From a virus, in IMG/VR virus record IMGVR_UViG_3300032677_000032, positions 1 to 61,872 of that record: a stretch of DNA of 61,872 nucleotides; one strand, written 5' to 3'. A program made the position numbers and the translations under genes. Shown one piece after another: positions 2,834-61,872 of the stretch (the first letter of the stretch is position 1; every line of letters starts with the position of its first letter). The notes beneath the pieces were generated by a model that saw only the letters and a program-made list of their open reading frames with translations, ran no database searches and was not told the DNA's origin.

Positions 2834-2841
2834 TATTTATA
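2834..2841 (-). promoter_or_regulatory. Late promoter, minus arm of a bidirectional pair
   Basis: TATAAATA on the minus strand, 26 bases before the ATG at 2807. It overlaps the plus-strand TATAAATA at 2840-2847 by two bases, forming one palindromic bidirectional late promoter. Confidence 0.72.
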
Positions 2842-2847
2842 TAAATA
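2840..2847 (+). promoter_or_regulatory. Late promoter of the homing endonuclease at 2906
   Basis: TATAAATA on the plus strand, three bases before the conserved leader hairpin. Confidence 0.75.
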
Positions 2848-2850
2848 GAT

Positions 2851-2880
2851 GTGGTTCACGATGTTGACGCATCTAACCAC
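2851..2880 (+). ncRNA. Conserved 5' leader hairpin, copy 1
   Basis: Outer stem GTGGTT/AACCAC (2851-2856 with 2875-2880), 3x1 internal loop CAC/T, inner stem GATG/CATC (2860-2863 with 2870-2873), six-base loop. Followed by the conserved spacer and AGGAG RBS. Four more copies (11944, 25274, 33144, 61797) keep the fold with different stem bases, which supports a selected RNA structure. Confidence 0.75.
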
Positions 2881-2905
2881 ACTATCGCTAAACAGGAGCA
2901 ACAGC

Positions 2906-3574
2906 ATGTCTATTTATCTCTATGTCAAACAATGTCCCCACTGTGGGCTAAAGTATTTTGGTAAAACAGAACAAGATCCATATACTTACAACGGATCAGG
3001 AAAGATGTGGATTCCACACATCAAGAAACACAAAGTCACACCAAAAACAATAGAACTATATGAGTTTTCTGATAAAGAGGAAGCAAAAAAGTTTGCTATA
3101 AACTTTTCTAAAGAAAACAGAATAGTAGAATCTAAAGAGTGGTTCAATCTTGTTATAGAACAGTGTGACGGTGGAGACACCTCGGCTTCTCCAGCATTTC
3201 AACGATGGATTGATCAGATAGACATGGCTGGTGAAAAAAATCCTATGTATGGTAGATCAGCAATAACTGAACAAAATCTTCGTTGGTATACTAACGGTGA
3301 GAACAATCTATATCTTCCTGTCGGCACAGAGATGTTGGGTTATCGCCGAGGAAGAACTATAAAACATAGAAAACCACATACACAAGAACATAAAGACAAA
3401 ATATCTAAAGCAAATACGGGAAAGAAAAGTGTAAATCAAAAAACGTGCATATCACCTGATGGAAATATATACGAATCTATCACACAAGCCGCAAACGCAC
3501 ATTCAATGACTGTATCGGCGTTCAGACATAAAATCGAACATAAAGAAAAACATTTGGGTTGGATTATTGTTTGA
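2906..3574 (+). CDS. GIY-YIG homing endonuclease
   Basis: 222 residues. The N-terminal GIY-YIG domain starts YLYVKQCPHCGLKYFGKT (degenerate GIY plus a KYFGKT form of YIG). The first ~90 residues are close to those of the gene at 12000. A DNA-binding tail follows: a WYTNG repeat unit, a NUMOD3-like HTQEHKDKISKANTGKK segment and a NUMOD1-like CISPDGNIYESITQAAN segment. The start is the ATG with AGGAG 9 bases upstream. The gene runs against the local operon and its last 11 bases overlap the 3' end of the HAD gene. Expected role: cutting DNA at a neighbouring locus in rival phage genomes to spread itself. Confidence 0.88.
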   Translation: MSIYLYVKQCPHCGLKYFGKTEQDPYTYNGSGKMWIPHIKKHKVTPKTIELYEFSDKEEAKKFAINFSKENRIVESKEWFNLVIEQCDGGDTSASPAFQRWIDQIDMAGEKNPMYGRSAITEQNLRWYTNGENNLYLPVGTEMLGYRRGRTIKHRKPHTQEHKDKISKANTGKKSVNQKTCISPDGNIYESITQAANAHSMTVSAFRHKIEHKEKHLGWIIV

Positions 3575-4127
3575 CAATCTTATAAATGTCTTTCCAGTAT
3601 TTTACCAAGACGGCTTTGCCTTTATAATCATGACTGTGTTCGTGTTCAACCAAAATACCTTTTAGACCAAGACTATCGCACAAATCGACGTTCTCTGGTT
3701 TGTCCTCGATGAAGTATATTCCGCTGCCCTTATAGGGAGCAAGTGCTTCATCTTTATCTGCGCCACATTCCAGGCAGACGACACTTTCAATCGCTTCGCC
3801 GAAGTACCGCTTCAGGTTTTGTTCACGAAGCCGAGCAGCGGCAGGATCCAGACTCAAGCTGGTAATGACGCGAATCTGTACGCCATGTTCTTCATAGAGT
3901 TTGCGAACGTATTTCACAGCATCCCGAAGAGGAGGCAGAAAGCCACATGCCGCACTTTCGTTGAAATCACGAACAAGTTGTTTGCTTACGACCTTTTCGA
4001 TTCCATAGCGAAGATCAATGCCATAGGCATCGCTCCGAACGCGCTTGAACCCTTTGCGCTGCATCCACTGGTCGAAACCAAACTCCCAGTCTAGTAGCAC
4101 ACCGTCGCAATCGCTCAAAATCAACAT
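3564..4127 (-). CDS. HAD-superfamily phosphatase
   Basis: 187 residues. HAD motif I is DCDGVLLDW at residue 6 (both catalytic Asp present), motif II is VITS, and motif III/IV is FIEDKPENVDL. The layout resembles 5'(3')-deoxyribonucleotidases and other small phage HAD enzymes. A dedicated early promoter lies just upstream. It may dephosphorylate nucleotides; the substrate cannot be read from the sequence. The last 11 bases overlap the convergent homing endonuclease gene. Confidence 0.82.
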   Translation of the reverse strand: MLILSDCDGVLLDWEFGFDQWMQRKGFKRVRSDAYGIDLRYGIEKVVSKQLVRDFNESAACGFLPPLRDAVKYVRKLYEEHGVQIRVITSLSLDPAAARLREQNLKRYFGEAIESVVCLECGADKDEALAPYKGSGIYFIEDKPENVDLCDSLGLKGILVEHEHSHDYKGKAVLVKYWKDIYKIVKQ

Positions 4128-4158
4128 TTCATTCCCAATCTCACTCGCTACATTTCTT

Positions 4159-4186
4159 ACTATATATGATTCGATTTAAATGTCAA
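4159..4186 (-). promoter_or_regulatory. Early promoter
   Basis: TTGACA (4186-4181), 16-base spacer containing CGAATCA, TATAGT (4164-4159). Drives the HAD gene at 4127. Confidence 0.75.
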
Positions 4187-4908
4187 GCAGCAATGCGCAA
4201 AACATTGCCGCCAGGACCATTGATCGGGCGAGAAAGATTGACACGATCACCAGCAGACTGACCGCTGCGATATGCTGCACCATCACGAATAGTGGTACCA
4301 CCATAGTTCTTCTTAAGACGCAAGCCAAGTTCACGATATGCCTGATTGACAACCTGATTCTTCAGAACAATCAAAGCATTGCTGCCGCCTCGTGCAGCTT
4401 TTTCTTCGCCGTTCATCTGAGCCTTCATTTCGTTCAGACGACGACCAATACGCATTGCCATACCAGTGGTAAACGAACTGGTAGCACCTTTCTTGCTATA
4501 TGCTCCCTTATATTCAGGAGTCTTCTTGAACTTTGCCAGTTCAGTTGCCATAGCCGACAGGATAATATCATAAAGATACTTCACCATCAGCAGATCACTT
4601 TCTTGACCAAAGAAGCAATACTTCAGAGTAGCACCACGATTGGTCCACACCTTACAATCGGTAAAGCCAGCGATATCCGAGAGAGCGTAATAGACGCCGT
4701 TGCGGACCTTGCTGCCAATATCAATCTTCAAAGTGTCACAAACTTCATCACGAAGTTCGACCTCGTTCATGGACAGATTATATTGCGAGAGCAACTTACC
4801 CACCATGTTGATTGCGGTAAGTGCTTCTTCTTCCGAGCAGCCATTCTTGACGGTCTTAGCCGAGAGAGCGCGAATACGAGCCTTGATCTTGCTTTGGATA
4901 TCAGTCAT
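4183..4908 (-). CDS. DUF2786-domain protein
   Basis: 241 residues. The N-terminal ~50 residues (KIKARIRALSAKTVKNGCSE, then EEALTAINMVGKLLSQYNL) match the DUF2786 pattern: a K-I-x-x-L helix, an E-E-A-x-x-A helix and a Y-N-L end. A second domain follows with a Gly-rich basic C-terminus. The family is common in phages and thought to be nucleic-acid associated, but no activity is established. It has its own early promoter; the C-terminus runs into the next promoter. Confidence 0.8.
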   Translation of the reverse strand: MTDIQSKIKARIRALSAKTVKNGCSEEEALTAINMVGKLLSQYNLSMNEVELRDEVCDTLKIDIGSKVRNGVYYALSDIAGFTDCKVWTNRGATLKYCFFGQESDLLMVKYLYDIILSAMATELAKFKKTPEYKGAYSKKGATSSFTTGMAMRIGRRLNEMKAQMNGEEKAARGGSNALIVLKNQVVNQAYRELGLRLKKNYGGTTIRDGAAYRSGQSAGDRVNLSRPINGPGGNVLRIAA

Positions 4909-4941
4909 AACGAATCATTCCTTCTCACTGTCTATATTTTC

Positions 4942-4969
4942 ATCATAAACGAATCGGGATAAATGTCAA
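4942..4969 (-). promoter_or_regulatory. Early promoter
   Basis: TTGACA (4969-4964), 16-base spacer, TATGAT (4947-4942). GATTCGTT occurs in the spacer and again just before the ATG at 4908. Confidence 0.75.
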
Positions 4970-4975
4970 GCGATC

Positions 4976-5191
4976 TTATCGCTCCAGAATGACATAATCA
5001 CCAAAGTGACGATCAAAAACTTCCAGAAGGTTTTCGTAATCACCTTCCATCATTTCCGAAACAATAGCTTTACCATCAAGCCCGAGTTGCTTTGCATACT
5101 GGCGGGCATAACCCATGAGGACAAATGCGTTACCTTCAGGACCACTCAGGTCGATAACGATTTCAGACTTGGGTTGCTTCTCACGAATCAT
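4976..5191 (-). CDS. Small conserved phage protein
   Basis: 71 residues, acidic, with a hydrophobic core and a Gly/Met/Ala helix (GYARQYAKQLGLDGK). AAGGAT lies 6 bases before the ATG. First of two small genes upstream of the promoter at 4942. No family recognised. Confidence 0.7.
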   Translation of the reverse strand: MIREKQPKSEIVIDLSGPEGNAFVLMGYARQYAKQLGLDGKAIVSEMMEGDYENLLEVFDRHFGDYVILER

Positions 5192-5206
5192 AACGTATCC
5201 TTTCGA

Positions 5207-5329
5207 TTAATATTCAAGTTGTGCGCCAGGAGGTGGAAGTTCTGGATAATACCAATCGGGAACCAAAGCCCGCACCCAGACGCAATCAGATAGACGCTTT
5301 ATCCAAACAAAATGATAACCTTCCATCAT
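5207..5329 (-). CDS. Small protein, 40 residues
   Basis: Begins MMEGYHFVWIKRL and ends in a Pro-rich tail (PELPPPGAQ). The start overlaps the upstream stop as ATGA. Rich in Trp and Tyr. Function unknown; supported by tight operon placement. Confidence 0.6.
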   Translation of the reverse strand: MMEGYHFVWIKRLSDCVWVRALVPDWYYPELPPPGAQLEY

Positions 5330-5553
5330 GAAGAAACTTTTTCGTGAACCATCGCGATGTGCTTACACTTACCACGAAAGTTGAAACCAATGCAATCACA
5401 TACCCAACCACGTTCGACCATGGTTGTGTTATATTGCTTGCCTTTAGAGTTTACGTATGGCCAGGTGAAGCCAACCAGATGGTGTTTCTCACTGAAGTTA
5501 ATACCATCAAGAGCAAGAGGTGTCCGATAGGGGCTAACACCAGGAACAAACAT
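5326..5553 (-). CDS. Small SWIM-type zinc-finger-like protein
   Basis: 75 residues from the ATG at 5553 (an upstream in-frame TTG at 5571 is less likely). The C-terminal half has WVCDCIGFNFRGKCKHI, a C-x-C...C-x-H arrangement like a SWIM zinc finger, which binds DNA or protein. Sits in an operon of small early genes. Confidence 0.7.
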   Translation of the reverse strand: MFVPGVSPYRTPLALDGINFSEKHHLVGFTWPYVNSKGKQYNTTMVERGWVCDCIGFNFRGKCKHIAMVHEKVSS

Positions 5554-5555
5554 GA

Positions 5556-5738
5556 TTAACGTTCCGCACAAGCAACAAAATCGTCCAAAAGATATTGGAG
5601 CCGATCAAGCTTGATCTGCAACCCGGCAATCCTTTCGCCAGTCAATCCTTCACGCTCTGCGGCTCGGAGAGTAGAATCCATTCCAGCGACCAACTTGCGC
5701 ATCGCACCAATCAGGATTTGTTCATCATCATAAAACAT
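5556..5738 (-). CDS. Small helical protein
   Basis: 60 residues starting MFYDDEQILIGAMRKL; the ATG at 5738 has GGAGA 9 bases upstream. Predominantly helical, Leu/Arg rich. Lies between two small early genes. Unknown function. Confidence 0.65.
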   Translation of the reverse strand: MFYDDEQILIGAMRKLVAGMDSTLRAAEREGLTGERIAGLQIKLDRLQYLLDDFVACAER

Positions 5739-5750
5739 AATCAAATCTCC

Positions 5751-6107: not shown

Positions 6108-6140
6108 AACGAATCAACCCTTCTCTCTGTCTACTTTCTG

Positions 6141-6169: not shown

Positions 6170-6172
6170 GTT

Positions 6173-11931: not shown

Positions 11932-11939
11932 TATAAATA
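11932..11939 (+). promoter_or_regulatory. Late promoter of the homing endonuclease at 12000
   Basis: TATAAATA, four bases before the leader hairpin. Confidence 0.75.
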
Positions 11940-11943
11940 AGAT

Positions 11944-11973
11944 GTGACTCGCGATATTCCAGTATCCAGCCAC
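11944..11973 (+). ncRNA. Conserved 5' leader hairpin, copy 2
   Basis: Outer stem GTGACT/AGCCAC (one A-C mismatch), internal loop CGC/C, inner stem GATA/TATC, loop TTCCAG. Inner stem differs from copy 1 by a compensated G-C to A-T change. Confidence 0.72.
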
Positions 11974-11999
11974 ACTAACGCTAAACAGGAGCATCAGCT

Positions 12000-12701
12000 A
12001 TGACTATTTATCTATATGTCAAACAATGTCCCCACTGTGGTCTAAAGTATTTCGGTAAGACCGTTAGCAAAGATCCTTACAAATATAAAGGATCTGGCAC
12101 CATCTGGATGAGGCATATCAAGAAACATAATGTAGTTCCTTATACCATAGAAATGTACACATTTCAAGATAAAAATGAAGCAATAAACTTCGCTCTGTCT
12201 TTTTCCAAAGAACACAATATAGTTGAATCTAACGAGTGGGCAAATCTTGTCACAGAAAGAATCGACGGTGGATTTGAGCCAGGTAAACCACATACGCTAG
12301 AACATAGACTAAAAATAAGCAAAGGACTTTCAGGTAGAGTCCCCACAAAACAACACACCGACAATATCTGGATAACAAGAAAATCTCGTTACAAGAATGG
12401 TGTGACTGATGAGACCAGACAGCTAAGAAAGTCGTTATTTTCTGGATCAAAGAATCCAATGGCACAGAACTGGACATTACATTATAAAGATGGTCACCAA
12501 GTTCAAATCGATTGTCTAAAAACTTGGGCACTCAACAATGGATACAAATACAACACTTTATATATGAGGTGGTATAATCAAGACAAAGCTTTTCGTGATG
12601 GATTCAATATCACCAAAGATCAAATCTTACAGGAAGAGCAATCATCATCGGCCGAATCTTCAACGTCGATTTCTCCAGCGCCATCTGCTGTATTAAAATA
12701 G
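12000..12701 (+). CDS. GIY-YIG homing endonuclease overlapping the nrdA 3' end
   Basis: 233 residues. The N-terminal GIY-YIG domain (YLYVKQCPHCGLKYFGKT) is nearly the same as in the gene at 2906 over ~85 residues; the tail differs, with NUMOD3-like HTLEHRLKISKGLSG and a C-terminal helix-turn-helix-like WALNNGYKYNTLYMRWYN. The last ~27 codons (Ser/Ala/Pro-rich) are antisense to the end of nrdA, including the redox-Cys tail. Placement next to nrdA suggests it protects or targets that locus. AGGAGCATCAGCT precedes the ATG. Confidence 0.88.
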   Translation: MTIYLYVKQCPHCGLKYFGKTVSKDPYKYKGSGTIWMRHIKKHNVVPYTIEMYTFQDKNEAINFALSFSKEHNIVESNEWANLVTERIDGGFEPGKPHTLEHRLKISKGLSGRVPTKQHTDNIWITRKSRYKNGVTDETRQLRKSLFSGSKNPMAQNWTLHYKDGHQVQIDCLKTWALNNGYKYNTLYMRWYNQDKAFRDGFNITKDQILQEEQSSSAESSTSISPAPSAVLK

Positions 12702-14875
12702 TATAGGTTTTTGCCTCCGAGTTTATAAAACATCAGCAAGTGCCCGATCATCTCTGATAGAGGAATCTTACCCTCTGGATAGTGAACTGGATTGTAGGAG
12801 GTGTTCACGGAGATAGCTTGATCAACAAACTTCTGTAGAACTGCCATGATCTTCAGATAACCCTCTGGTGACTTCTGGTCCCATAGCAACTCATACTTAT
12901 TCTTTAGTTTCTTGATATCAGGAACAACCTGCTTTAGAACACCATCTTTACTCTGCTTGATTGATACCAACGCACGAGGAGGCTCAATACCATTCGTTGA
13001 GTTACTAATCTGTGCAGAAGTTTCAGCAGGCATTAATGCCATCAAAGTTGAGTTACGAATGCCGTATGAAGTAGCATAACGACGAACATAATCCCAATCC
13101 ATATGATACACAGGTCCAGCCAGATCATCAACATCTTTCTTATAAGTGTCGATAGGAAGAATTGCTTGGCTGTATTTTGTTTCGTTTGTTTTGCCGCAAG
13201 GTCCAAACTCAAAAGCAAGATCAACAGAAGCCTTGATTAAGTAATAGGACCAAGCTTCAGCAAAACGATGCACAAGGTCAAGATCAGGATTAGAATAGGT
13301 TGATCCGTTCTTAGCGAGCCAATATGCAAAATTAATGATACCAACGCCAAGAGGCCGACGATTTCTAGTACCCTTTCGCGCTGCTTTAACAGGATAGTCT
13401 TGATAGTCAAGCAGAGCATCCAAAGCGCGGACAGCAATCGTGCAAGGCCGCTCGAAGTCTTCTGGTGATTTGATTTTACCCCAGTTGATCGCGGCAAGTG
13501 TGCATAATGATATTTCACCTTCTTCATCATTGATATCTTTCAGTGGTGTTGTAGGTAGTGTAATCTCACAACAAAGATTGCTCATCTTAACAGGAGCAGC
13601 ATGTTTGATAAACGAACCATGATCATTGGCATGGTCAACGTTCATCAGATAGATTCGTCCTGTATCTTTTCGCTCTTGCATGAAGGCTGAGAATAGATCA
13701 ATCGCAGGGACGGACTTCTTTCTGATTTTTGGATTGCGTTCGTATTTCTCATAGAGACTACGGAATTTATCAACATCCGTGAAGAAACATTTGTAGAGAT
13801 CCGGCACATCAGAAGGCGAGAAGAGCGTGATTGTACCACCAGATAGAAGTCTTTCATACATCACCTTGTTGAACTGGACACCATAGTCCATATGCCGAAT
13901 GCGATTGTCTTCTGTGCCCTTGTTATTTTTAAGAACTAAAAGGTCTTCTACTTCAAGATGCCAAAGAGGATAGTAGATGGTTGCTGCACCACCTCTTACG
14001 CCGCCTTGCGAACACGACTTAACAGCACTCTGAAAATGCTTCCAAAATGGCACAACGCCAGTATGAACAGCGTCGCCACCGCGAATGGGAGAGCCAATAG
14101 CCCTAATGAGGCCACCACCAATTCCGATTCCAGCCTTCTGAGAAACGTACTTAACGATTGCAGAGGAAGTAGCGTTGATAGAATCGAGAGAATCATCCGA
14201 CTCAATAAGCACGCAAGAACTAAACTGACGCTGAGGAGAACGAACTCCAGCCATAATAGGAGTAGGCAAGCTAATATCAAATGTAGAGATAGCATCGTAT
14301 AGTTCCTTTACCCACTTGATACGGTCTGTTTTATAGTTTTGAAACAATGTCATGGCGATCAACATGAATGCCATCTGAGGCGTTTCGTAGAACTGACCAG
14401 TAACACGATTCTTGATTAGATACTTACCACGAAACTGCTCCATTGCAGCATAGGTAAGAAGATTGTCACGATCATGGTCGATATAATCACCAAGTTCTGC
14501 CCATTCATCCCAAGAATACACCTTTGAAAGATTTCTATCATAATAACCTAGACTTTCAACTCTATCATGATGTTGCAATAAAGGCTTGGGATCATATCGA
14601 CCATAAACTTCCTTACGCAACTGATAGTTGATTAGACGACCAGCAACGTATTGGTAGTTAGGTGTTTCTTCAGAGATAAGATCAGCCGCGGCTTTGATCA
14701 GCGTTTCTTGAATGTCTTTGGATGTGATGCCATTGTGAAACTGAATCTTTGTTTTGATTTCAAGTTCTGATACAGATACACCAGAAAGCCCTTCACACGC
14801 AAACTGACATACACGATGGAACTTGTTTAGGTCTAGAGGTTCTTTACTACCATCGCGTTTAGAAACATGGATCAT
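12620..14875 (-). CDS. nrdA: Ribonucleotide reductase class Ia, large subunit
   Basis: 751 residues. Reduces ribonucleoside diphosphates with NrdB and thioredoxin/glutaredoxin. Seen: an N-terminal ATP-cone-like region, FSSCVL (active-site Cys), NLCCEITLPT (the N-x-C-x-E catalytic set), LCTLAAINWG (second redox Cys) and a C-terminal CSSCKI redox pair. Length is typical. The 3' end is overlapped by the convergent homing endonuclease gene for 82 bases. Supplies dNTPs for phage replication together with ThyX, glutaredoxin and the dCMP-type deaminase. Confidence 0.97.
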   Translation of the reverse strand: MIHVSKRDGSKEPLDLNKFHRVCQFACEGLSGVSVSELEIKTKIQFHNGITSKDIQETLIKAAADLISEETPNYQYVAGRLINYQLRKEVYGRYDPKPLLQHHDRVESLGYYDRNLSKVYSWDEWAELGDYIDHDRDNLLTYAAMEQFRGKYLIKNRVTGQFYETPQMAFMLIAMTLFQNYKTDRIKWVKELYDAISTFDISLPTPIMAGVRSPQRQFSSCVLIESDDSLDSINATSSAIVKYVSQKAGIGIGGGLIRAIGSPIRGGDAVHTGVVPFWKHFQSAVKSCSQGGVRGGAATIYYPLWHLEVEDLLVLKNNKGTEDNRIRHMDYGVQFNKVMYERLLSGGTITLFSPSDVPDLYKCFFTDVDKFRSLYEKYERNPKIRKKSVPAIDLFSAFMQERKDTGRIYLMNVDHANDHGSFIKHAAPVKMSNLCCEITLPTTPLKDINDEEGEISLCTLAAINWGKIKSPEDFERPCTIAVRALDALLDYQDYPVKAARKGTRNRRPLGVGIINFAYWLAKNGSTYSNPDLDLVHRFAEAWSYYLIKASVDLAFEFGPCGKTNETKYSQAILPIDTYKKDVDDLAGPVYHMDWDYVRRYATSYGIRNSTLMALMPAETSAQISNSTNGIEPPRALVSIKQSKDGVLKQVVPDIKKLKNKYELLWDQKSPEGYLKIMAVLQKFVDQAISVNTSYNPVHYPEGKIPLSEMIGHLLMFYKLGGKNLYYFNTADGAGEIDVEDSADDDCSSCKI

Positions 14876-18779: not shown

Positions 18780-19162
18780 TAGCAGTGCCACCTTCTTAGA
18801 GACATTGCTTTGCGTGTTGGGCGCCCCTTGTCGTCTTTCATAGGACCAGGCATGCCGCTCATTCGCGCACAGAATGACTTTCTGCGCTTGGCTGCTTTAC
18901 CTTCTGGATTTAGTTCGCTTGGCTTCTTTGTAACGGCAGTATGAATGCCAAAGTGTTTAGCGCCCTTTGCTGTCAATCCAGCACCAGATTCGGTAGAGCG
19001 ATAGTATCCCTTAGAGTCTGCGCCGCGCTCTACAAGAACATCTTCCTTGACGGGGACACAGTTAGGAACTTCTTTGCCATTCTTTTTCTTTTTGCCCACC
19101 ATCTGATAACCCTTCCAGCAAGGATCATCTTTCATTTCACAAAAAGATGCAAAGCTTTCCAT
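18779..19162 (-). CDS. DUF6321-like virion-associated protein
   Basis: 127 residues. DPCWKGYQMVGKKKKNGKEV then PNCVPVKE is a tag-like segment found in many T4-like marine phage proteins. It is followed by GYYRSTESGAGLTAKG and KAAKRRKSFCARMSG, the DUF6321 core with conserved Cys and basic cluster. The N-terminus MESFASFCE is a weak version of the capsid targeting peptide. Probably an internal head protein. Confidence 0.7.
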   Translation of the reverse strand: MESFASFCEMKDDPCWKGYQMVGKKKKNGKEVPNCVPVKEDVLVERGADSKGYYRSTESGAGLTAKGAKHFGIHTAVTKKPSELNPEGKAAKRRKSFCARMSGMPGPMKDDKGRPTRKAMSLRRWHC

Positions 19163-23075: not shown

Positions 23076-25205
23076 TTATTTATCCTTGAATAGACCTGGA
23101 TTGTTTCTACGAAATGTTTCTTCTTCAGCGATCTTCTTTAGATTCTGATTTTGTGACATGATATCACGAACAGCAGATTCGACAGCATGATAGCGCGAAG
23201 CAGCAGTGTAAGGTGTTACTACTGATTCGCGGATGGTTTCTTCTTTACTGAAAGACTTATTCATTGCAACTTCGGCATCTTTGGCAAACTTCTTTGCACC
23301 GATTGGAGTTGCTGTTTTATCTTTAGCACGATCTTGTCCTGCACGATCAAACTTGGTTTCTGGAGATTTGTCCATTTCTTCTAGTTCGGTTTCTTCTTTG
23401 GTTGAAATCTTTTTATAACGATCTGCCGCTCTTGCTGATCTACCGCCTTCAGCTTTTTCTTTTTCGTGGCTGTCGTTTGGTGTTCCATCATAAAACTTTT
23501 TAGGAGTATTTTTTAGCAAGTTTGCATTGAACTTTTCGTCCTTAGCGCGTTCACCAGCTTCATTCTTACCAAGACCAGGAACATATTTACGTAATGTTCT
23601 TGATTGGCCCATTTTGCGGACAATATCCATATTGTTTTCGTCAAGATCGGCAAGTTCATTCTCAACTAGACGATCAATATCTGACTCGTCAAAGATACCT
23701 TCTTCAAGTGCATCTGCAAACTGGTCCATCAACTCTTCCTTACGAAGCATCTTGAAGTCCTCAGCGTCTAGCTTATCATTGTGATTCTTGTCAAGCTTCT
23801 TCTGCTTGCCGATTAGCTTCTTTTCTTCTAGTTCGGCTTCTTCTTTGGCGGTAACTTTCTTTTTGAGTTTATTGCCAATCTCACCAATCTTGTTGATGCC
23901 TTTAGCAAGTGCAGTACCAGCAGTACCACCTGCAACAGCGCCACCAGCAGCACCTAGAGTTGCTCCGCCTTTGATGGCCATTGGATCATGATGTACATGC
24001 GGCGCCGCAGCCATACCACCAGCAACTGCACCTAGTGCGCCGCCTGCTAGTGCGCCTTTAATGCCCCATTTTGTAGGATCCAACTTTTCATCAAGTGTAC
24101 GGAACTTGTTTGATGAACTTACACCCCAAAGTGGCGCTTTTGTTTCTTCGGACATTACTTCTTCCCCTAATGCTGATTTGTGTTCTTCATGTGATTTACG
24201 AATCTTGGCTTGAAATGCTTCTTTATCCGCAGGCTTTGGTAGACTATTATAGTGATCTAATGTCTTTGATGCCATAGAGCCTGAAACGTGATGTGTCTTA
24301 CCATTCTCATACTTGATGTCTTGACCACCAGTCTGATTGGTAGAAGCTTGTCTTAGTCTGTTGATGATGTGTTCTGATGGCGCATGTTGCTCTGGCGGTA
24401 GGACACCATTCTTGCGAAGTCTGCGAATGCGATCCATATGCTCTGGATTGTCATGATACAACTTTTCTTTATTGTTAGGATTGACAGTGTAGCCAAGATC
24501 CTTCTTTGGTCGACCACGTGCTTCGTCTAGTTCTACTTCTTCTGCCATTTCTTTATCCATTACTTTTGATTTCTTTAAAACATCCAGAATAAGAGGAGCC
24601 TTCAATGCATTGTGGCGAGGAACAACAAGTCTCTGTGTTGATCTTGGATGAACATATACTTCATGATCGCCAGAACCACCACTTGACTTTGGTGTCCAGC
24701 CTTTCTTCTTGATGTGTGAAACTAGCGCACGACGATCCATATTAGCACCAGCCATTTCGTCTAGTTCAGTTTCTTCTTTCTTGATGTTATTTTTAGAAGA
24801 TTTCACTTTTGTGATATTTTCAATATCAGAGATTGTAAACTTTCCTGGACCATCAGTTCTGGCTGGAAATAAAGACATGAAATCTTTCTTTGGCTTTTCT
24901 TCATCGACCTGCTCAATATCTTCTGAAATGCCAGCATGACGCATAGCAGAATCTTTAAACTCTGCACCAAACGTCTTTACCTTACCGTGCTTGTTCATTG
25001 CATCCCAAGCATTTGGATTTGTCTTGCTCTTTCTCACATATGGTGTGTTGTTTGATTCTTCAACTTCTTCACCGTGAACCTTATAAGATGCAGCAACAGC
25101 CTGTTTCACTCGCTCGGCCTTACTCTTGCCCGCGAACTTTGGATTCTTTGATTTCACAAAGTCATGAATGATTTCAGATGTTGGTGTATCTTTATTGATT
25201 GGCAT
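23076..25205 (-). CDS. Putative packaged polyprotein with HicA-like segment
   Basis: 709 residues, highly charged. Acidic linkers E-E-x-E-L-(D/E)-E recur at residues ~145-150, 223-228, 456-461 and 605-610; each holds an L-x-E site of the kind cut by T4 gp21 protease. Between the first two lies a ~75-residue unit (RRALVSHIKKKGWTPKSSGG then GDHEVYVHP and RLVVPRHNALKAP) that resembles HicA mRNA interferases. Then come an AT-hook-like RGRPKK (230), a glycine-zipper stretch (384-435), an EF-hand-like DKNHNDKLDAED (472-483) and further basic segments. A late promoter lies 27 bases upstream. Proposed: internal head protein matured into several peptides delivered with the DNA. Cleavage and HicA activity are inference. 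Confidence 0.68.
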   Translation of the reverse strand: MPINKDTPTSEIIHDFVKSKNPKFAGKSKAERVKQAVAASYKVHGEEVEESNNTPYVRKSKTNPNAWDAMNKHGKVKTFGAEFKDSAMRHAGISEDIEQVDEEKPKKDFMSLFPARTDGPGKFTISDIENITKVKSSKNNIKKEETELDEMAGANMDRRALVSHIKKKGWTPKSSGGSGDHEVYVHPRSTQRLVVPRHNALKAPLILDVLKKSKVMDKEMAEEVELDEARGRPKKDLGYTVNPNNKEKLYHDNPEHMDRIRRLRKNGVLPPEQHAPSEHIINRLRQASTNQTGGQDIKYENGKTHHVSGSMASKTLDHYNSLPKPADKEAFQAKIRKSHEEHKSALGEEVMSEETKAPLWGVSSSNKFRTLDEKLDPTKWGIKGALAGGALGAVAGGMAAAPHVHHDPMAIKGGATLGAAGGAVAGGTAGTALAKGINKIGEIGNKLKKKVTAKEEAELEEKKLIGKQKKLDKNHNDKLDAEDFKMLRKEELMDQFADALEEGIFDESDIDRLVENELADLDENNMDIVRKMGQSRTLRKYVPGLGKNEAGERAKDEKFNANLLKNTPKKFYDGTPNDSHEKEKAEGGRSARAADRYKKISTKEETELEEMDKSPETKFDRAGQDRAKDKTATPIGAKKFAKDAEVAMNKSFSKEETIRESVVTPYTAASRYHAVESAVRDIMSQNQNLKKIAEEETFRRNNPGLFKDK

Positions 25206-25260: not shown

Positions 25261-25268
25261 TATAAGTA
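25261..25268 (+). promoter_or_regulatory. Late promoter (variant) of the HNH endonuclease
   Basis: TATAAGTA, one base off consensus, five bases before the leader hairpin. Confidence 0.65.
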
Positions 25269-25273
25269 TTGAT

Positions 25274-25304
25274 GTCTGTCACGATACTGGAAATATCCAC
25301 AGAC
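25274..25304 (+). ncRNA. Conserved 5' leader hairpin, copy 3
   Basis: Outer stem GTCTGT/ACAGAC, internal loop CAC/C, inner stem GATA/TATC, loop CTGGAAA. The outer stem differs from copies 1, 4 and 5 by paired changes. Confidence 0.75.
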
Positions 25305-25329
25305 TCTAACGCTTATAAGGAGCATCAGC

Positions 25330-25992
25330 ATGAATATTTATCGCAGAATCTGGACTCGTCATTTCGGTCCCATTCCTAAAGATGAGAATGGTAGATCATA
25401 CGAGATTCATCATATAGACGGCAATCGTAAGAACAACGATATTTCCAACTTAGTTTGCATAACGATACAAGAACACTATAACATACATTATTCTCAAAAC
25501 GATTGGGCAGCCTGTTTACGTATCTCACAGAGAATGTCCATTAGTGCAGAAGAAAAGTCTAACTTGGCCAAGCTTGTTCAAACAAAAAGGCTTGAAGATG
25601 GTACACATCCTTTTTTGGATAAAGAAAATCATAAAAGATGGAATAAAGAAAAGATTCAAAATGGAACACACAACTTTTTAGGTGGTGAAGTTCAAAGAAA
25701 ACGTATAGAAGAAGGAACTCACCACTTTCTAGGAAGCGATATAAACAACAAAAGAGTAGAAGAAGGCACACATCCATTTCTAGGTGGTGAAATACAGAGA
25801 CAATCTAATAAAAAAAGAGTAGAAAATGGAACACACCATTTATTGGGTGGTGAAATGAACCGTAAAAGATTCAAAGATGGAACTCATCCGTTTCTGAAGA
25901 AAAAAGAATGTCCTCATTGTTTAAACTATCTCGATCCTGGTAACTTTGCAAAACATCATGGCGATAAGTGTAAAATGAAGATCAGATCGTAG
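25330..25992 (+). CDS. HNH homing endonuclease with repeat tail
   Basis: 220 residues. N-terminal HNH: RSYEIHHIDGNRKNNDISNL, with HH, N and the downstream H of EHYNIHY. Residues ~85-200 are about seven units of ~16 residues with the core K-R-x-E-x-G-T-H-x-F-L-G-G, probably a modular DNA-binding array. A C-terminal CPHCLNYLDPGNFAKHH...C zinc-finger-like unit ends the protein. Uses the same leader as the GIY-YIG genes. Its last 11 bases overlap the Dps-like gene. Confidence 0.88.
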   Translation: MNIYRRIWTRHFGPIPKDENGRSYEIHHIDGNRKNNDISNLVCITIQEHYNIHYSQNDWAACLRISQRMSISAEEKSNLAKLVQTKRLEDGTHPFLDKENHKRWNKEKIQNGTHNFLGGEVQRKRIEEGTHHFLGSDINNKRVEEGTHPFLGGEIQRQSNKKRVENGTHHLLGGEMNRKRFKDGTHPFLKKKECPHCLNYLDPGNFAKHHGDKCKMKIRS

Positions 25993-33130: not shown

Positions 33131-33138
33131 TATAAATA
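33131..33138 (+). promoter_or_regulatory. Late promoter of the homing endonuclease at 33200
   Basis: TATAAATA, five bases before the leader hairpin. Confidence 0.75.
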
Positions 33139-33143
33139 AGAAT

Positions 33144-33174
33144 GTAGGTCGCGATGTTGGTTGCATCCACCTAC
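33144..33174 (+). ncRNA. Conserved 5' leader hairpin, copy 4
   Basis: Outer stem GTAGGT/ACCTAC, internal loop CGC/C, inner stem GATG/CATC, loop TTGGTTG. Confidence 0.77.
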
Positions 33175-33199
33175 TCTAACGCTTGCAAGGAGCATCAGT

Positions 33200-33943
33200 A
33201 TGACTATTTATTCACATGGGTATATCCCATACACTTATTACATCAAATGGACCAGAACTGGGGTCTGGTATTATGGCGTTGAATATGCATCGGTAACTAA
33301 AACCGCAAACCCAAACAATCTATGGACAACATATTTCACTTCATCAAATGCCGTTGCAGAATATAGAAGACTCAATGGCGAACCAGATATTATTAAAGTG
33401 ACGAAAACCTTTTATAATCAAGAAGAAGCATTATTGTGGGAGACCAGATTCTTGCAGAAAGTTAATGCCAGACATCATACATTGTCGCTAAACGGACATA
33501 ACTCTGATGGACTTACTTTTAAGAACAAAATAGTATCAGAAAAAACAAGAAAATCACAATCAGAAACCCGTAAACTACATAAATGGTGGACCGATGGAAC
33601 TAAATCTTGGTTTTGTCAGAATCGACCCAATGACAAATGTTATGAGGGGCGAGGTCCTTTTAATAACAATGGTGCTCAGATCGGCGGTTTCTTGAGTAGA
33701 AATAAAAAGTGGTACACAAACGGTATAACTTCCGTGTTTATTTTACCAACCGAAGTGCCTGATGGATTCTATGAAGGCAGAAAAATAGGTAAAATAAACA
33801 CAAAAGCGACACGTTCTAACAAAAGATGGTATAATGATGGCATAAAAACCTACTTCATATTACCAGAAGACGCATTGTCTCATTATTCAACAGGTAGATT
33901 AAAACGAAGTAATATCAACTCCACCACCATAGTTGATAACTGA
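33200..33943 (+). CDS. GIY-YIG (Seg-like) homing endonuclease
   Basis: 247 residues. YTYYIKWTRTGVWYYGVEYA is a GIY-YIG signature of the SegB/I-TevI-like type; LWTTYFTSSNAV and EEALLWETRFLQ follow as in Seg proteins. The C-terminal half has three units with W-x-(T/N)(D/N)G and F-I-L-P...Y-x-G-R, probably DNA-binding repeats. It is not closely related to the GIY-YIG genes at 2906 and 12000 but uses the same leader. The last 45 bases overlap the phosphoesterase gene. Confidence 0.82.
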   Translation: MTIYSHGYIPYTYYIKWTRTGVWYYGVEYASVTKTANPNNLWTTYFTSSNAVAEYRRLNGEPDIIKVTKTFYNQEEALLWETRFLQKVNARHHTLSLNGHNSDGLTFKNKIVSEKTRKSQSETRKLHKWWTDGTKSWFCQNRPNDKCYEGRGPFNNNGAQIGGFLSRNKKWYTNGITSVFILPTEVPDGFYEGRKIGKINTKATRSNKRWYNDGIKTYFILPEDALSHYSTGRLKRSNINSTTIVDN

Positions 33944-44708: not shown

Positions 44709-45668
44709 TTACTTATTTTTTAGAGATTCTAGAAGACCCGACCATTCCATTGCTTTAGTGTTCCAGTTGTATGTACGATCTGCTTGGATTTTCTGTAGAT
44801 AAAGATCCTGTGCAATCAAGTCTCTTTGATTACGCATAACGTTGATACCCTGTGAAAGAACCTGATAGAATGAGTTTGCATGATGATTCTTATCTTCGCT
44901 CCACTGATACATCCATGTCAAGCCCATAGAAGTTTCTGGTAGTGCTGCTAGATTAGGATGAATGCAGAGTAGACCAGCAGACATGGCTTCGATCAAACAG
45001 AGACAGGAGGTTTCTTTCCAGATTGAAGGATATGCAAAGATGTCTGCGTTCAACAATGCGCTGCGCAACTCTTCGTTGCTTACAGAGCCGTGATAGTTAA
45101 TCTGTGGATGCTGGCGACAGACTTCAAACAGGTCTTCATACTGTTGATCGCGTTGTTCCCAACCATACAACTTGAATGATGAATAGACATCCAATGTGAT
45201 GTTAGGATCGTTCTCGGCTAGCTTGATGAAGACTGGTACCAGAATATCTAGACCACGATGTGGAGTAGGTGTGTAGATCAATCGGATCTTTTTATCATCT
45301 ACAGTCTTTGCTGTAGTGTCGATAGGTTCAATAGAGTTTTTAATGACAACAGAATCGCTATATGGTACACCACGAACGTTGTTGTATTGTTCCATCTGCC
45401 AGTTTGAAACGAAAACAAACTTATCAAACTTCTTACGATACATTGGATCAGATAGTCGCGACGACTCTGGATCTTCTGGTAGATCGTGACAGTAGTAAAT
45501 CTTCGTCTTGGTTTCGTCTAGTTCACGAGCGCGTGAGAAAACAATCTGTGTGTCTTCTAGAAGTTCACGAGGAACACCACCCGCATATAGACGTTCTTGT
45601 AGTAGTTCTGTACCACCCTTTGAGTTCTTGTTTAACTCATTACGTTCCATTAGGTCATGATTGCTCAT
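44709..45668 (-). CDS. Glycosyltransferase, GT-B fold (GT4 type)
   Basis: 319 residues. RLIYTPTPHRGLDILVPVF (start of the C-terminal Rossmann domain), YHGSVSNEELRSALLNADIF, then YPSIWKETSCLCLIEAMSAG (E-x7-E nucleotide-sugar binding motif) are GT4 hallmarks. The N-terminal part has KGGTELLQERL. Could glucosylate phage DNA or a surface/virion component. Its start overlaps the small membrane gene upstream. Confidence 0.9.
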   Translation of the reverse strand: MSNHDLMERNELNKNSKGGTELLQERLYAGGVPRELLEDTQIVFSRARELDETKTKIYYCHDLPEDPESSRLSDPMYRKKFDKFVFVSNWQMEQYNNVRGVPYSDSVVIKNSIEPIDTTAKTVDDKKIRLIYTPTPHRGLDILVPVFIKLAENDPNITLDVYSSFKLYGWEQRDQQYEDLFEVCRQHPQINYHGSVSNEELRSALLNADIFAYPSIWKETSCLCLIEAMSAGLLCIHPNLAALPETSMGLTWMYQWSEDKNHHANSFYQVLSQGINVMRNQRDLIAQDLYLQKIQADRTYNWNTKAMEWSGLLESLKNK

Positions 45669-59474: not shown

Positions 59475-59508
59475 ATCACCTCAACTGTTTAGAATCTCTC
59501 AATGGCTC

Positions 59509-59537
59509 ATCTTACACCAAAGCGAGAGATTAGTAAA
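59509..59537 (-). promoter_or_regulatory. Early promoter of the polymerase operon
   Basis: TTTACT (59537-59532), 17-base spacer, TAAGAT (59514-59509). AATCTCTC (59531-59524) pairs with GAGAGATT (59500-59493), again bracketing the -10 box with a different arm sequence. Confidence 0.75.
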
Positions 59538-60276
59538 CAGATAAATGTCGATCTTGCATTTTTATCAGATATTCGTTTAGCTTATCAATGTAGCCCATAT
59601 TACGTAACTCCTTAAAGAGGAGGTTCTCAACAGAAAGTTCACCAGATTTGTGAATACCAGAAGAACGCATATTGCGGATCTTGATCTTGAGGCGCTTAAT
59701 GTCCTCGCTATGGTCACCAGTCTTTGTGAGAACATCTTCGATCTGTTTGATTAGATGTTCAAGTCTATTCTTAAAGCCTGTGTCATTGTGAAAGTCACCT
59801 GGCTTCTCTTTTCTTGGCTTGAACAGCCACTTGTCTTGCATTAGAGAGTAGACACCACGATTTGCTTTAGGTGACACCAACTTCTCTCTATAACTCTGCG
59901 CATATAGTTCAACAGGATATCCCATGACAGTCAGCGATGGATGTTTGTATCCCCATAAAAGTTTCTTATCATAAAGATAATCATCAAGATACACGCGGTT
60001 GATACCTGGAATCTTTGGAATGTTGATCAGTAGATGAACGTCTAGATCGGAATGTGGTGTATAGTTATAGTTTGCATTGCCACCAGTGAACACGATGTCT
60101 TTGATAGCATCTTCTGGAATATTGGCAAACACAGCAAACATTCTACCAATCAATAGAAGACGTTCTTTGATGTTCTGCTTTAGTTCATCACCATCCCAGA
60201 TAAGAGGATTCAACTCATCATGATACTGAAACGTAAGAGAGATATCTTCTCTTAGAAAGTGACCAAACTTGTGCAT
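59530..60276 (-). CDS. Nucleotidyltransferase (pol beta fold) with capsid targeting-like N-terminus
   Basis: 248 residues from the ATG at 60276 (AAGGA 7 bases upstream; an ATG at 60282 is in frame). MHKFGHFLRE fits the capsid targeting pattern (L-R-E). VFTGGNANYNYTPHSDLDVH is the G-G/S...D-x-D active site of pol-beta nucleotidyltransferases, and YPVELYAQ adds the third acidic residue. Likely adds a nucleotide to RNA, protein or a small molecule. Cotranscribed with the endolysin from a late promoter. Confidence 0.8.
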   Translation of the reverse strand: MHKFGHFLREDISLTFQYHDELNPLIWDGDELKQNIKERLLLIGRMFAVFANIPEDAIKDIVFTGGNANYNYTPHSDLDVHLLINIPKIPGINRVYLDDYLYDKKLLWGYKHPSLTVMGYPVELYAQSYREKLVSPKANRGVYSLMQDKWLFKPRKEKPGDFHNDTGFKNRLEHLIKQIEDVLTKTGDHSEDIKRLKIKIRNMRSSGIHKSGELSVENLLFKELRNMGYIDKLNEYLIKMQDRHLSVY

Positions 60277-60285
60277 TGACATTCC

Positions 60286-60768
60286 TTATAGATTTTGATA
60301 AGGATCATAGTTGGCATCTGGGTACCATGAACCATTGAAGAGTTTGTTTTGATCTTTTACAGAAACAAACTGGACATGATCCATGTCCTTGAATGTATGT
60401 ACTGATTTAGGAGTGCCCCAATCTGCACCAGAGATAAGACCGTGCTTTGTTGCTAGTCTGCAAAGGAACGTATAGTCGCCTTCAAATGAAGGTTGACCAT
60501 TGACCAGCTTTACGATATCACAAGCAAGCCCATAGTGATGTACACCAACATTCTTCAGCTTCGTGGCATGTTGATTGAAGAGTTGTACCTGGCGTTCATC
60601 TGAGCGATAAGTTTCTAGGATCTTTAGTGGTTGACCAGCAGCAGCAGATTCTGCCATAAGTGCCTCGACTTTGGCTTTGAACGCTGGGAATAACAAGTCT
60701 AAAGAGTTTACCATGTTTGTTGTATGAAACAATGGGCTCTTTTGGATTACATCTGTGTAGAAACTCAT
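60286..60768 (-). CDS. Endolysin, M15 L-Ala-D-Glu/D-Ala-D-Ala peptidase family
   Basis: 160 residues. ILETYRSDERQVQLFNQ (Y-R-S), GVHHYGLACDIV (H-x-x-G-x-A-x-D) and KDMDHVQF (D-x-x-H) are the zinc and catalytic residues of VanY/M15 peptidases. No signal peptide, so it needs a holin. Its late promoter and a terminator hairpin lie just upstream. Confidence 0.9.
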   Translation of the reverse strand: MSFYTDVIQKSPLFHTTNMVNSLDLLFPAFKAKVEALMAESAAAGQPLKILETYRSDERQVQLFNQHATKLKNVGVHHYGLACDIVKLVNGQPSFEGDYTFLCRLATKHGLISGADWGTPKSVHTFKDMDHVQFVSVKDQNKLFNGSWYPDANYDPYQNL

Positions 60769-60785
60769 CGCTATAGTCCTTGAAA

Positions 60786-60815
60786 CAAAAAGAGAGGGAC
60801 AATATGCCCCTCTCT
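60786..60815 (-). terminator. Terminator upstream of the endolysin gene
   Basis: Minus-strand hairpin AGAGAGGG/CCCTCTCT with 9-base loop, followed by TTTTTGTTT. Ends transcripts from the Hsp20 side; overlaps the start of the late transcript from 60815-60822. Confidence 0.8.
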
Positions 60816-60822
60816 ATTTATA
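60815..60822 (-). promoter_or_regulatory. Late promoter of the endolysin gene
   Basis: TATAAATA on the minus strand, directly adjoining the terminator hairpin; 46 bases before the ATG. Confidence 0.68.
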
Positions 60823-60824
60823 GA

Positions 60825-60866
60825 TTATCCTAGATAATCCCATTCGTCCTCAGTATATGGCCACAT
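60825..60866 (-). CDS. Possible 13-residue micro-ORF
   Basis: MWPYTEDEWDYLG with GGAGA upstream. Very short, but the Trp/Tyr/acidic pattern resembles micro-ORFs seen in T4-like marine phages. Low certainty. Confidence 0.4.
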   Translation of the reverse strand: MWPYTEDEWDYLG

Positions 60867-60877
60867 AGACAATCTCC

Positions 60878-60973
60878 TTATAGTGCAAGAAGATTATACA
60901 TAGTGATCAAACATAGACCTGCAATGGTAAACCCTGCAACTCTTGATACAGGGACGATGTATTTTTCTAGCAT
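60878..60973 (-). CDS. Small membrane protein, 31 residues
   Basis: MLEKYIVPVSRVAGFTIAGL plus a hydrophobic end; one transmembrane helix. Its start overlaps the Hsp20 stop (TAAATG spacing). Unknown role. Confidence 0.5.
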   Translation of the reverse strand: MLEKYIVPVSRVAGFTIAGLCLITMYNLLAL

Positions 60974-61519
60974 TTATTTTCCTTCTCTTTCAGCCAGATA
61001 TTCTGCGGTAGAAGAAGATTTTTTTGTTGTATGGATATCATGTTTGTCTTGAATGTCAATCTTCTTCGGTTTCTTATGTTCTGGAATGACATACTCCAGA
61101 CCAACGCGAAGAATCCCATTTAGAAGTTCTGCGCCAGTGATTTCAACATGATCAGCAAGTGTGAACTGGCGCGTAAATGGACGCATTGCCAATCCTTGAT
61201 GTAGAAATAGTGGCCAAGTCCATTCGCCTTCTGAATCTTTCTCAGAAGATTCACCTGACTTGACATTGCCCTTAATAGTTAGTTTACCATCAGAGAGTTC
61301 AACGTCAATATCTTCGCGTGCGAAACCCGCAACTGCCACTTCAATGACATACTTGTTTCCATCAATCTTTTTGATGTTGTATGGTGGGTAGTTCGTAGAA
61401 AGCTTTGCTGTCTGCTCTGCCGCTGATGCTAGTTTCTGTACTAGAGGATCAAAGCCAACAAAAAACTTATCTATTTCTGGGGTAAAAGCAAAGCTTGAGC
61501 CGTAAAAAGTGTTAGCCAT
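60974..61519 (-). CDS. hsp20: Hsp20-family small heat shock protein
   Basis: 181 residues from the ATG at 61519 (MANTFYGSSFAFTPEIDKFF), GGAGAA upstream. Alpha-crystallin domain: YPPYNIKKIDGNKYVIEVAV, AGFAREDIDVELSDGKLTIK and LLNGILRVGLEYVIPE (the G-I-L motif). A known cargo of marine T4-like phages; may help fold virion proteins late in infection, in agreement with the late promoter at 61580. Confidence 0.94.
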   Translation of the reverse strand: MANTFYGSSFAFTPEIDKFFVGFDPLVQKLASAAEQTAKLSTNYPPYNIKKIDGNKYVIEVAVAGFAREDIDVELSDGKLTIKGNVKSGESSEKDSEGEWTWPLFLHQGLAMRPFTRQFTLADHVEITGAELLNGILRVGLEYVIPEHKKPKKIDIQDKHDIHTTKKSSSTAEYLAEREGK

Positions 61520-61579
61520 ATTAGTTCTCCTATTTAAGCGAGAGTTGATGTAATGTCTACCCATTTGGCATAGACGAGT

Positions 61580-61587
61580 TATTTATA
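61580..61587 (-). promoter_or_regulatory. Late promoter of hsp20
   Basis: TATAAATA on the minus strand, 60 bases before the ATG at 61519; overlaps the stop codon of the upstream small gene. Confidence 0.7.
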
Positions 61588-61756
61588 AACGTTTCCACTT
61601 ACTGCCGAGAAGAATCCTGGTCTTCATTCTGAACCACCAGGATTTCTCTTCTCTAAACTTTAACACGATTGCATTAGGATCACCAAATACAACCCACTCC
61701 CATATGAAGGGTGGTAGCTTCGGTGTAGGCGTCCATACTGGTTCCCATGGTTGCAT
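61583..61756 (-). CDS. Small Trp/Pro-rich protein
   Basis: 57 residues: MQPWEPVWTPTPKLPPFIWE, then basic (KTRILLGSKWKRL). The coding DNA holds a strong inverted repeat (61607-61644, AATCCTGG/CCAGGATT plus GAGAAG/CTTCTC). Unknown function. Confidence 0.62.
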   Translation of the reverse strand: MQPWEPVWTPTPKLPPFIWEWVVFGDPNAIVLKFREEKSWWFRMKTRILLGSKWKRL

Positions 61757-61783
61757 AATGTATCATCCTGAAAGTTTGTCTTT

Positions 61784-61791
61784 TATAAATA
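61784..61791 (+). promoter_or_regulatory. Late promoter of the plus-strand gene at 61855
   Basis: TATAAATA, five bases before the leader hairpin. Confidence 0.73.
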
Positions 61792-61796
61792 CTAAT

Positions 61797-61830
61797 GTAG
61801 ATCGCGGTGACTTGGCCGAAACCCATCTAC
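61797..61830 (+). ncRNA. Conserved 5' leader hairpin, copy 5 (diverged)
   Basis: Outer stem GTAGAT/ATCTAC, then CGC as in other copies, but the inner part is longer (GGT/ACC pair and a larger loop) and the spacer to the RBS differs. Confidence 0.68.
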
Positions 61831-61854
61831 TCTAGAAACTTGGGAGATTCCAGC

Positions 61855-61872
61855 ATGACTACTTATACACCC
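61855..61872 (+). CDS. Start of a plus-strand gene, probably another homing endonuclease (cut off)
   Basis: Only MTTYTP is visible. Called from the shared leader and a GGGAG RBS; the MT-I/T-Y start resembles MTIY of the genes at 12000 and 33200. Confidence 0.55.

Follow-up and report, generated by a model that had tools for sequence, protein, structure and literature searches.

A two-hairpin element that precedes homing endonuclease genes of T4-like phages: a probable antisense RNA

The window, a 61,872-nt stretch of viral DNA (positions 1 to 61,872 of IMG/VR virus record IMGVR_UViG_3300032677_000032), belongs to a T4-like phage whose nearest listed DNA polymerases are from cyanophages (best 51%). 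Five copies of a hairpin with a changing stem are found in this window, ahead of rightward genes that include homing endonuclease genes (HEGs). The locus raises the question of which strand is selected to fold and what the fold does for the gene behind it. In the original prediction, the late HEG mRNA begins with the hairpin, and its ribosome-binding site (RBS) is left free. Comparison of many copies points to the opposite strand, and the element is probably an antisense RNA that holds HEGs in check.

All five window copies and their stems were confirmed on re-reading. Copies 1, 2, 4, and 5 have TATAAATA and copy 3 has TATAAGTA, and the stem starts 3-5 bases later. The outer stems of copies 1 to 5 are GTGGTT/AACCAC, GTGACT/AGCCAC (with one A.C), GTCTGT/ACAGAC, GTAGGT/ACCTAC, and GTAGAT/ATCTAC. 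The CRC/Y internal loop and the inner stem GATR/YATC are present as first described, and the inner part of copy 5 is diverged. TATAAATA occurs 14 times in the window, where 2.8 are expected; the four on the plus strand belong to copies 1, 2, 4, and 5, and the minus strand has the remaining 10. Single copies are not unusually stable on the plus strand (folding z -1.41 to +0.16), and the evidence for the element is thus comparative.

Related copies are common in IMG/VR, usually ahead of HEGs of unrelated families; the frequencies given here refer to copies seen among the matches listed in that collection. Scanning viral contigs with the promoter and the 5' half of the first hairpin (H1) only, blind to 3' pairing, gave at least 115 stretches with 123 sites, of which 111 show a fixed-pattern continuation into the H1 3' half; L018 also continues into it, as judged by eye. 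Those 111 sites comprise 56 distinct sequences over 45 bases, and the remaining sites include two half-elements (L070, L080). Split scans returned 28, 7, and 32 stretches, partly overlapping, and a promoter-blind scan returned at least 117. About half of the copy set was selected for TATAARTA, and a late-promoter-like motif also lies just upstream in most promoter-blind sites (TATAAATA, GATAAATA, ACTAAATA, and others). NNNAARTA precedes 107 of 116 unique copies, promoter-blind ones included, and lies within 1-3 nt of ATGT in 95; nine have none. By its sequence and position this motif agrees with a T4-type late promoter, whose start site is predicted. IMG/VR records chosen for having a copy carry 1-9 each (28/28 records; 102 matches at E <= 0.01). 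In cellular genomes, the ATGTANN form of the pattern gave 8 matches, none of which has the H1 3' half. In a subclass (L150, L152, L171, L206), GTCAACAAAA stands in place of a late promoter ahead of H1; its minus-strand reading is TTGAC, which resembles the -35 of an early promoter for the left gene (both by eye).

Three of 27 named phage records carry the element at E < 1e-4: Pseudoalteromonas phage vB_Psh_XG4, Variovorax phage V45v66, and Rhizobium phage RHph_I1_18. These copies are divergent. In XG4 and RHph_I1_18, the element lies ahead of an open reading frame (ORF) found by tblastn with HEGs from the copy set, and in V45v66 ahead of an ORF that is GIY-YIG-like by eye. Model matches are absent from T4, Aeh1, S-PM2 (NC_006820), pf16, and others among the 27 records, for 15 of which the scoring filters were stricter. 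The model R2 was built with XG4 and V45v66 included, so their R2 scores are not independent. The covariance model used on the window, with training rows that include copies 1-4 or identical ones and exclude copy 5, recovers all five copies at E <= 4.2e-12. A sixth match at 45141-45196 (E 0.0041, 18 bits; 13.5 bits with R2) lies within a minus-strand ORF and is probably due to chance; an equal-scoring match to this weak site occurs in a near relative. As had been supposed, no described RNA family matches the element in Rfam 15 at gathering score: the window yields only 4 tRNAs, and four loci searched at E up to 10 yield 4 weak matches, none at the element. Searching phages by blastn with two single copies returned nothing credible, and searches of the open-licence PMC literature turned up no description of the element.

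Comparison of the copies shows that the element is composed of two adjacent hairpins, H1, which was seen earlier, and H2, which spans the RBS. H1 has the layout GT-nnn-T, C-R-C, GRTR, loop, YAYC-Y-A-nnn-AC. One base after H1, H2 reads CTA-..-SD-..-CAG, where SD is the Shine-Dalgarno sequence, and is followed by C and usually the start codon. The RBS is thus not left free, as originally believed, since this second covarying hairpin covers it. The 116 unique relatives were gathered without selection on pairing of the three variable H1 pairs (nnn), and all three are complementary in 113, with 25 different triplets; 1000 shuffles gave a mean of 18.7 and a maximum of 30. The H2 pair after CTA varies as well (A-T, G-C, T-A, C-G), and the H2 3' arm keeps its position even in copies with a start codon upstream of CAGC (for example L003, L087, L192; by eye). 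In a minus-strand alignment that includes two cultured-phage copies, 97.7% of pairs over both helices are standard. The covariation score for both helices is 0.581, compared with 0.186 shuffled and at most 0.164 slid; shuffles ignore relatedness, and the slid controls and clustering address kinship only in part. Compensated changes are observed at pairs that are invariant elsewhere, the second H1 pair in V45v66 and the second H1 and first H2 pairs in XG4. The covariation is very strong, and the element is far beyond chance. A K-turn, defined by GA/GA pairs, was ruled out by eye as these pairs are absent.

The two strands differ in how well they pair. In the same 67 sequences, 18 pairs (1204 cells) are standard in 92.5% on the plus strand and 97.3% on the minus strand. 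The non-Watson-Crick cells are 67 A.C (G.U on the minus strand), 9 G.U on the plus strand, and 23 others. The third H2 position is A.C in 67/67, and adding it gives 87.6% on the plus strand and 97.5% on the minus strand. The R/Y pair of H1 is G-C in 63 copies, A-C in 29, A-T in 24, and G-T in 0. After clustering at 75% identity (53 clusters), this internal pair is A.C in 15 clusters, over 10 stem backgrounds, and G.U in 0, and two H2 pairs are A.C in 5 and 15 and G.U in 0. The minimum free energy is lower on the minus strand in 111 of 115 copies and higher in 3. H2 alone has a mean of -6.1 kcal/mol on the minus strand and -2.3 on the plus strand, and H1 alone has -9.7 and -9.2, respectively. 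Mean z values against mononucleotide shuffles are -2.1 (minus) and -1.5 (plus). The anti-SD is mostly unpaired in the minus fold (mean 0.80, 109 copies). The minus-strand forms are termed H2' and H1', and all five window copies fold into both, with H1' diverged in copy 5.

Because the defective plus-strand pairs are mostly A.C, and hence G.U on the minus strand, and because the folding energies agree, the comparison argues strongly that selection for folding acts on the minus strand, which is antisense to the HEG. The conserved A.C mismatches also weaken H2 on the mRNA, and both effects are most simply read as a fold that is required on one strand, the minus, and disfavoured on the other. As is expected of a cis-encoded antisense RNA, a conserved fold lies opposite the translation start of the target, with compensatory and G.U evidence over the RBS.

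These data bear on the original model, in which a 5' hairpin of the late HEG mRNA protects the RNA or serves as a plus-strand operator for a protein. H1 starts near the predicted plus-strand start and is nearly as stable there as on the minus strand, and its near-invariant internal-loop bases resemble a binding site. G.U pairs are rare on the plus strand, though, A.C pairs are frequent there, and H2 is weak. The distance from promoter to stem also varies, with 1, 2, or 3 nt before ATGT in 30, 16, and 49 copies, so that the predicted plus start often falls inside the stem. The model is quite unlikely as a whole. Since the stability of H1 by itself differs little between the strands, this hairpin may have an extra role at the 5' end of the HEG mRNA.

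On the right-hand side of the element, TATTTAT or one of four near spellings is found within 30 nt after CAGC in 110 of 115 copies; the next 30 nt have it in 3/115. The gap from CAGC is exactly 5 nt in 61 copies and 4-6 nt in 85. TATTTAT is the reverse complement of a late promoter (ATAAATA on the minus strand) and lies inside the first HEG codons. Its frame relative to the start codon varies (89/10/6 of 105). Compared with the remainder of these ORFs, codon choice at the motif is biased (p 1e-11 for Ile and 3e-5 for Tyr; the sequences are related, and these p values are too small). A conserved Met-x-Ile-Tyr peptide was rejected as an explanation, because the motif persists as DNA when the frame differs and because of this codon bias. 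Excerpts of PMC1524935 place late promoters at -13 to -6, with -13 variable, and NATAAATA is given as a late promoter of S-PM2 in the part of PMC2984593 consulted. With late promoters at -13 to -6, a 5-nt gap would put the minus-strand +1 at the base of H2. We infer that the right-hand motif is a second late-type promoter, and the predicted start is at the H2 base in four window copies and one base further out in copy 2 (Table 1).

In the classical T4 design, the RBS is sequestered in early read-through sense RNA and a late promoter relieves this, as for I-TevI, segB, and mobE. Here, too, a late promoter lies just upstream and a structure covers the RBS, and the right-hand motif could pair with the promoter. 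Sections of PMC2988022 and PMC3014915 describe RBS-sequestering hairpins for I-TevI, I-TevII, I-TevIII, segB, and mobE, and a non-sequestering hairpin for seg43(25). Those systems resemble the element in combining RNA structure with a late promoter; they differ in acting on the sense strand, and T4 and Aeh1 have no element match. No stable sense stem over the RBS is found in the element: H2 on the plus strand has a mean of only -2.3 kcal/mol, destabilized by conserved A.C mismatches, and the SD is on average 0.59 unpaired. Sense read-through should also be rare at the 27 of 37 loci with opposing neighbours described below. Pairing of motif and promoter in read-through RNA was rejected as the main reason for the motif, as TATTTAT is unchanged where the promoter is CTAAATA or missing (by eye), although in most copies the compensating G would be barred by an in-frame stop. 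The classical design is very improbable for this element. In cyanophages S-SRM01, B23, and Sf-CH5, HEGs of a related family (L241:680-790, L242:700-790, L246:730-800) have long inverted repeats around the late promoter, and two also have a terminator-like hairpin (by eye); this arrangement looks like the classical I-TevI-type design.

The proposal, put at roughly even chances, is that the element is a mobile antisense control module of free-standing HEGs in T4-like phages, with convergent late promoters. A late promoter (TATAAATA, NATAAATA, or CTAAATA) would drive the HEG, and the opposite-strand late-type promoter in its first codons would drive an RNA of ~57-60 nt starting at the H2 base. 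This RNA would fold into the two abutting hairpins H2' and H1' and end over the HEG promoter. It would be the complement of the HEG 5' untranslated region (UTR), including the SD, whose complement is mostly unpaired in the H2' loop, and usually without the start codon. By pairing with the HEG mRNA, it would block ribosome entry, like RNA-OUT on IS10 transposase. Where host genes run leftward across the HEG, read-through RNA would carry the same hairpins and may repress the HEG early.

The proposed mechanism resembles that of IS10 RNA-OUT. In the passages of PMC5006887 consulted, an opposing promoter makes a 69-nt antisense RNA over the transposase translation start, and changes in pIN destabilize RNA-OUT. 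Both are selfish elements with an enzyme promoter and an opposing antisense promoter, which is a prediction in the phage case, and the 3' part of RNA-OUT overlaps the inward promoter. Unlike IS10, the phage element has two hairpins, T4-type late promoters, and a 5' UTR complement that usually lacks the start codon; it is conserved over unrelated enzymes, and its antisense RNA is a prediction. CfrI, as excerpts of PMC2984593 and PMC12197685 describe it, is a ~225-nt RNA of cyanophage S-PM2, antisense to a free-standing HEG and linked to psbA. It shares with the element a T4-like phage and, as predicted for the element, an RNA antisense to a free-standing HEG, and it differs in length and psbA linkage; the element models match nothing in S-PM2. 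The PeSL cassettes of T4-type phages, reportedly described by Arbiol in 2010, are said to be mobile modules of promoter and stem-loop with early promoters and to be not tied to HEGs. P22 sar RNA has a two-hairpin form and, unlike the element, belongs to one locus of one phage and is not a mobile module. Parts of PMC12197685 list sar as a trans-acting phage RNA of 68/69 nt whose pairing partner is ant mRNA and whose effect is to inhibit synthesis.

The genes behind the element are composed of several families. An ORF of at least 50 aa is found at the start in 105 of 115 unique copies; of the other 10, 3 are cut off by the contig end, and in 7 there is an early stop or a start that the script misplaced. 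Among the 105, PHROG homing endonuclease matches are phrog_314 (56) and phrog_655 (42), which are overlapping sets, and Pfam matches are NUMOD3 (33), GIY-YIG (14), HNH (12), and HNH_3 (8). The enzymes belong to unrelated families, and the leader is common to them, in agreement with the earlier view that a covarying element travels with unrelated HEGs. In the window, the genes behind the copies are HEG-like by PHROGs, which amends the original family assignments: those of copies 1 and 2 match phrog_314, and that of copy 3 is an HNH relative of I-TevIII (phrog_12324, about 42% identity to named phage homologues). The copy 4 gene has as its sole match a 30-residue stretch of phrog_10820 (HNH endonuclease), and the copy 5 gene runs off the window.

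Not every phrog_314 gene has the element, as it lies just upstream of 45 of 111 merged phrog_314 loci (28 records and the window); conversely, a phrog_314 match follows 45 of 105 elements. These 105 elements are the 102 model matches minus two weak ones plus the five window copies, and the 111 loci include a phrog_447-like window gene and probably others. That gene (window:8013-8429) was not used as an HEG without an element, since phrog_447 matches better than phrog_314. For HNH_3, the element is present at 12 of 22 loci (by eye). A tentative extension, which has clearly less than even chances, is that the element is an exchangeable antisense 'immunity' cassette swapped among GIY-YIG and HNH endonucleases. 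Differences in stem and loop among the copies within one phage would make each RNA specific for its own HEG, with multicopy (copy-number) inhibition and mutual exclusion of like cassettes in co-infection.

The direction of neighbouring genes bears on another explanation, in which leftward host transcripts use the minus fold as a 5' leader or processing element that protects or restarts left-gene mRNA once an HEG has inserted against the transcription direction. Both flanks are clear at 37 of 105 loci: 27 have leftward genes on both sides, 6 have rightward genes on both sides, and 2 and 2 have other arrangements. As most clear loci are leftward on both sides, the element will often also be part of RNA that reads through from neighbouring genes. 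In some loci (such as L001 and L045), the RBS and start codon of the left gene lie close behind H1', and a passage of PMC2988022 notes that T4 HEGs carry promoters for displaced genes. However, fold and motif are kept equally where the left gene points away. In the left-neighbour test, 58 of 115 copies were classed as confident and 57 were not, by mechanical ORF and orientation calls. The confident left ORFs are 39 leftward and 19 rightward; the minus fold is favoured in 36 and 19 of them, and the motif is present in 37 and 18. At the six loci with rightward genes on both sides, fold and motif are present in 6/6 each, and at the 27 leftward ones in 26 and 25. Several left genes also have their own TTGACA-type promoter beyond the element (by eye). 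Loci with rightward left genes should have lost the minus fold and yet keep it, so a leader-only role is unlikely to be general, and this explanation is rather unlikely.

The border of the cassette is seen in a relative that lacks the copy 2 HEG. In L070, window bases 11969-12689 (the HEG and the end of the reductase gene) are replaced by 85 nt, and half of H1 is kept. The end of its ribonucleotide reductase gene is complete and has a different C-terminus (comparison of L070:1-400, and L080, with window:11932-12701). Either co-conversion at insertion or subsequent HEG loss would account for a junction inside H1. Such a junction would also fit a DNA-level element, in which hairpins formed by the displaced minus strand act during homing or recombination, or a mark of the cassette border. 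G.T pairs are tolerated in single-stranded DNA as well. Promoter motifs at both ends and their spacing to the starts fit transcription better, and unrelated endonuclease families share the element; a DNA-level role is improbable.

Several observations weigh against the antisense proposal. Loci in rightward contexts form the smaller group and might reflect recent insertion. Taken by itself, H1 folds about equally well on the two strands, with the lower energy on the minus strand in only 71 of 115 copies, and the SD is only partly open in the plus RNA. The near-invariant bases (GCUG, UAG, CG, and the two bulged G of H1') suggest a bound protein, for which antisense pairing alone would be insufficient as an explanation. 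In the cultured-phage copies, the right-hand motif is absent or displaced: none is seen in XG4, V45v66 has TATTTAC about 14 nt away, and RHph_I1_18 has TATTTAT about 12 nt away. No clear terminator is seen for the predicted minus RNA; there is just a T-rich stretch, which is at the same time complementary to the HEG promoter.

The positions of the predicted parts of the five copies are collected in Table 1. Elsewhere in the window, 35 bases within an ORF (19056-19090) are identical to Methylophilales phages Melnitz, the sole megablast match of window positions 1-25000 against named phages. A 709-aa ORF (23076-25205, minus strand) has a HicA-toxin-like internal stretch at residues about 159-213.

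Table 1. Predicted features of the five element copies in the window
Copy	Feature	Positions	Strand	Remarks
1	Late promoter (pIN) of HEG, TATAAATA	2840..2847	+	Predicted +1 at 2853 by -13 to -6 rule (PMC1524935)
1	Two-hairpin element (H2' then H1' on minus strand)	2849..2905	-	Model match, fold
1	Proposed minus-strand late promoter (pOUT) ATAAATA	2911..2917	-	Predicted +1 at 2905
1	Homing endonuclease (NUMOD3, phrog_314)	2906..3574	+
2	Late promoter TATAAATA	11932..11939	+
2	Two-hairpin element	11942..11998	-	Model match, fold
2	Proposed minus-strand late promoter ATAAATA	12005..12011	-	Predicted +1 at 11999, one base before H2 base
2	Homing endonuclease (phrog_314)	12000..12701	+	Overlaps 3' end of ribonucleotide reductase gene 12620-14875
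3	Late promoter TATAAGTA	25261..25268	+
3	Two-hairpin element	25272..25329	-	Model match, fold
3	Proposed minus-strand late promoter ATAAATA	25335..25341	-	Predicted +1 at 25329
3	HNH endonuclease, I-TevIII relative	25330..25992	+
4	Late promoter TATAAATA	33131..33138	+
4	Two-hairpin element	33142..33199	-	Model match, fold
4	Proposed minus-strand late promoter ATAAATA	33205..33211	-	Predicted +1 at 33199
4	HEG-like ORF	33200..33943	+	No Pfam match; short phrog_10820 (HNH endonuclease) match
5	Late promoter TATAAATA	61784..61791	+
5	Two-hairpin element, inner part diverged	61795..61854	-	Model match, fold
5	Proposed minus-strand late promoter ATAAGTA	61860..61866	-	Predicted +1 at 61854
5	Gene start (MTTYTP...)	61855..61872	+	Cut by window end; same start continues in L011

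If the antisense proposal is true, the element would represent an undescribed RNA family of wide occurrence, and it would provide a conserved form of antisense control over homing endonucleases that follows the logic of bacterial transposons. The sole precedent found for antisense control of an HEG is the S-PM2 RNA CfrI. Such control would explain the tameness of HEGs that are inserted against the direction of transcription. It also suggests that control module and nuclease would be distinct units in evolution that recombine with each other. Copies occur in cultured phages, and the hypothesis is thus open to testing.

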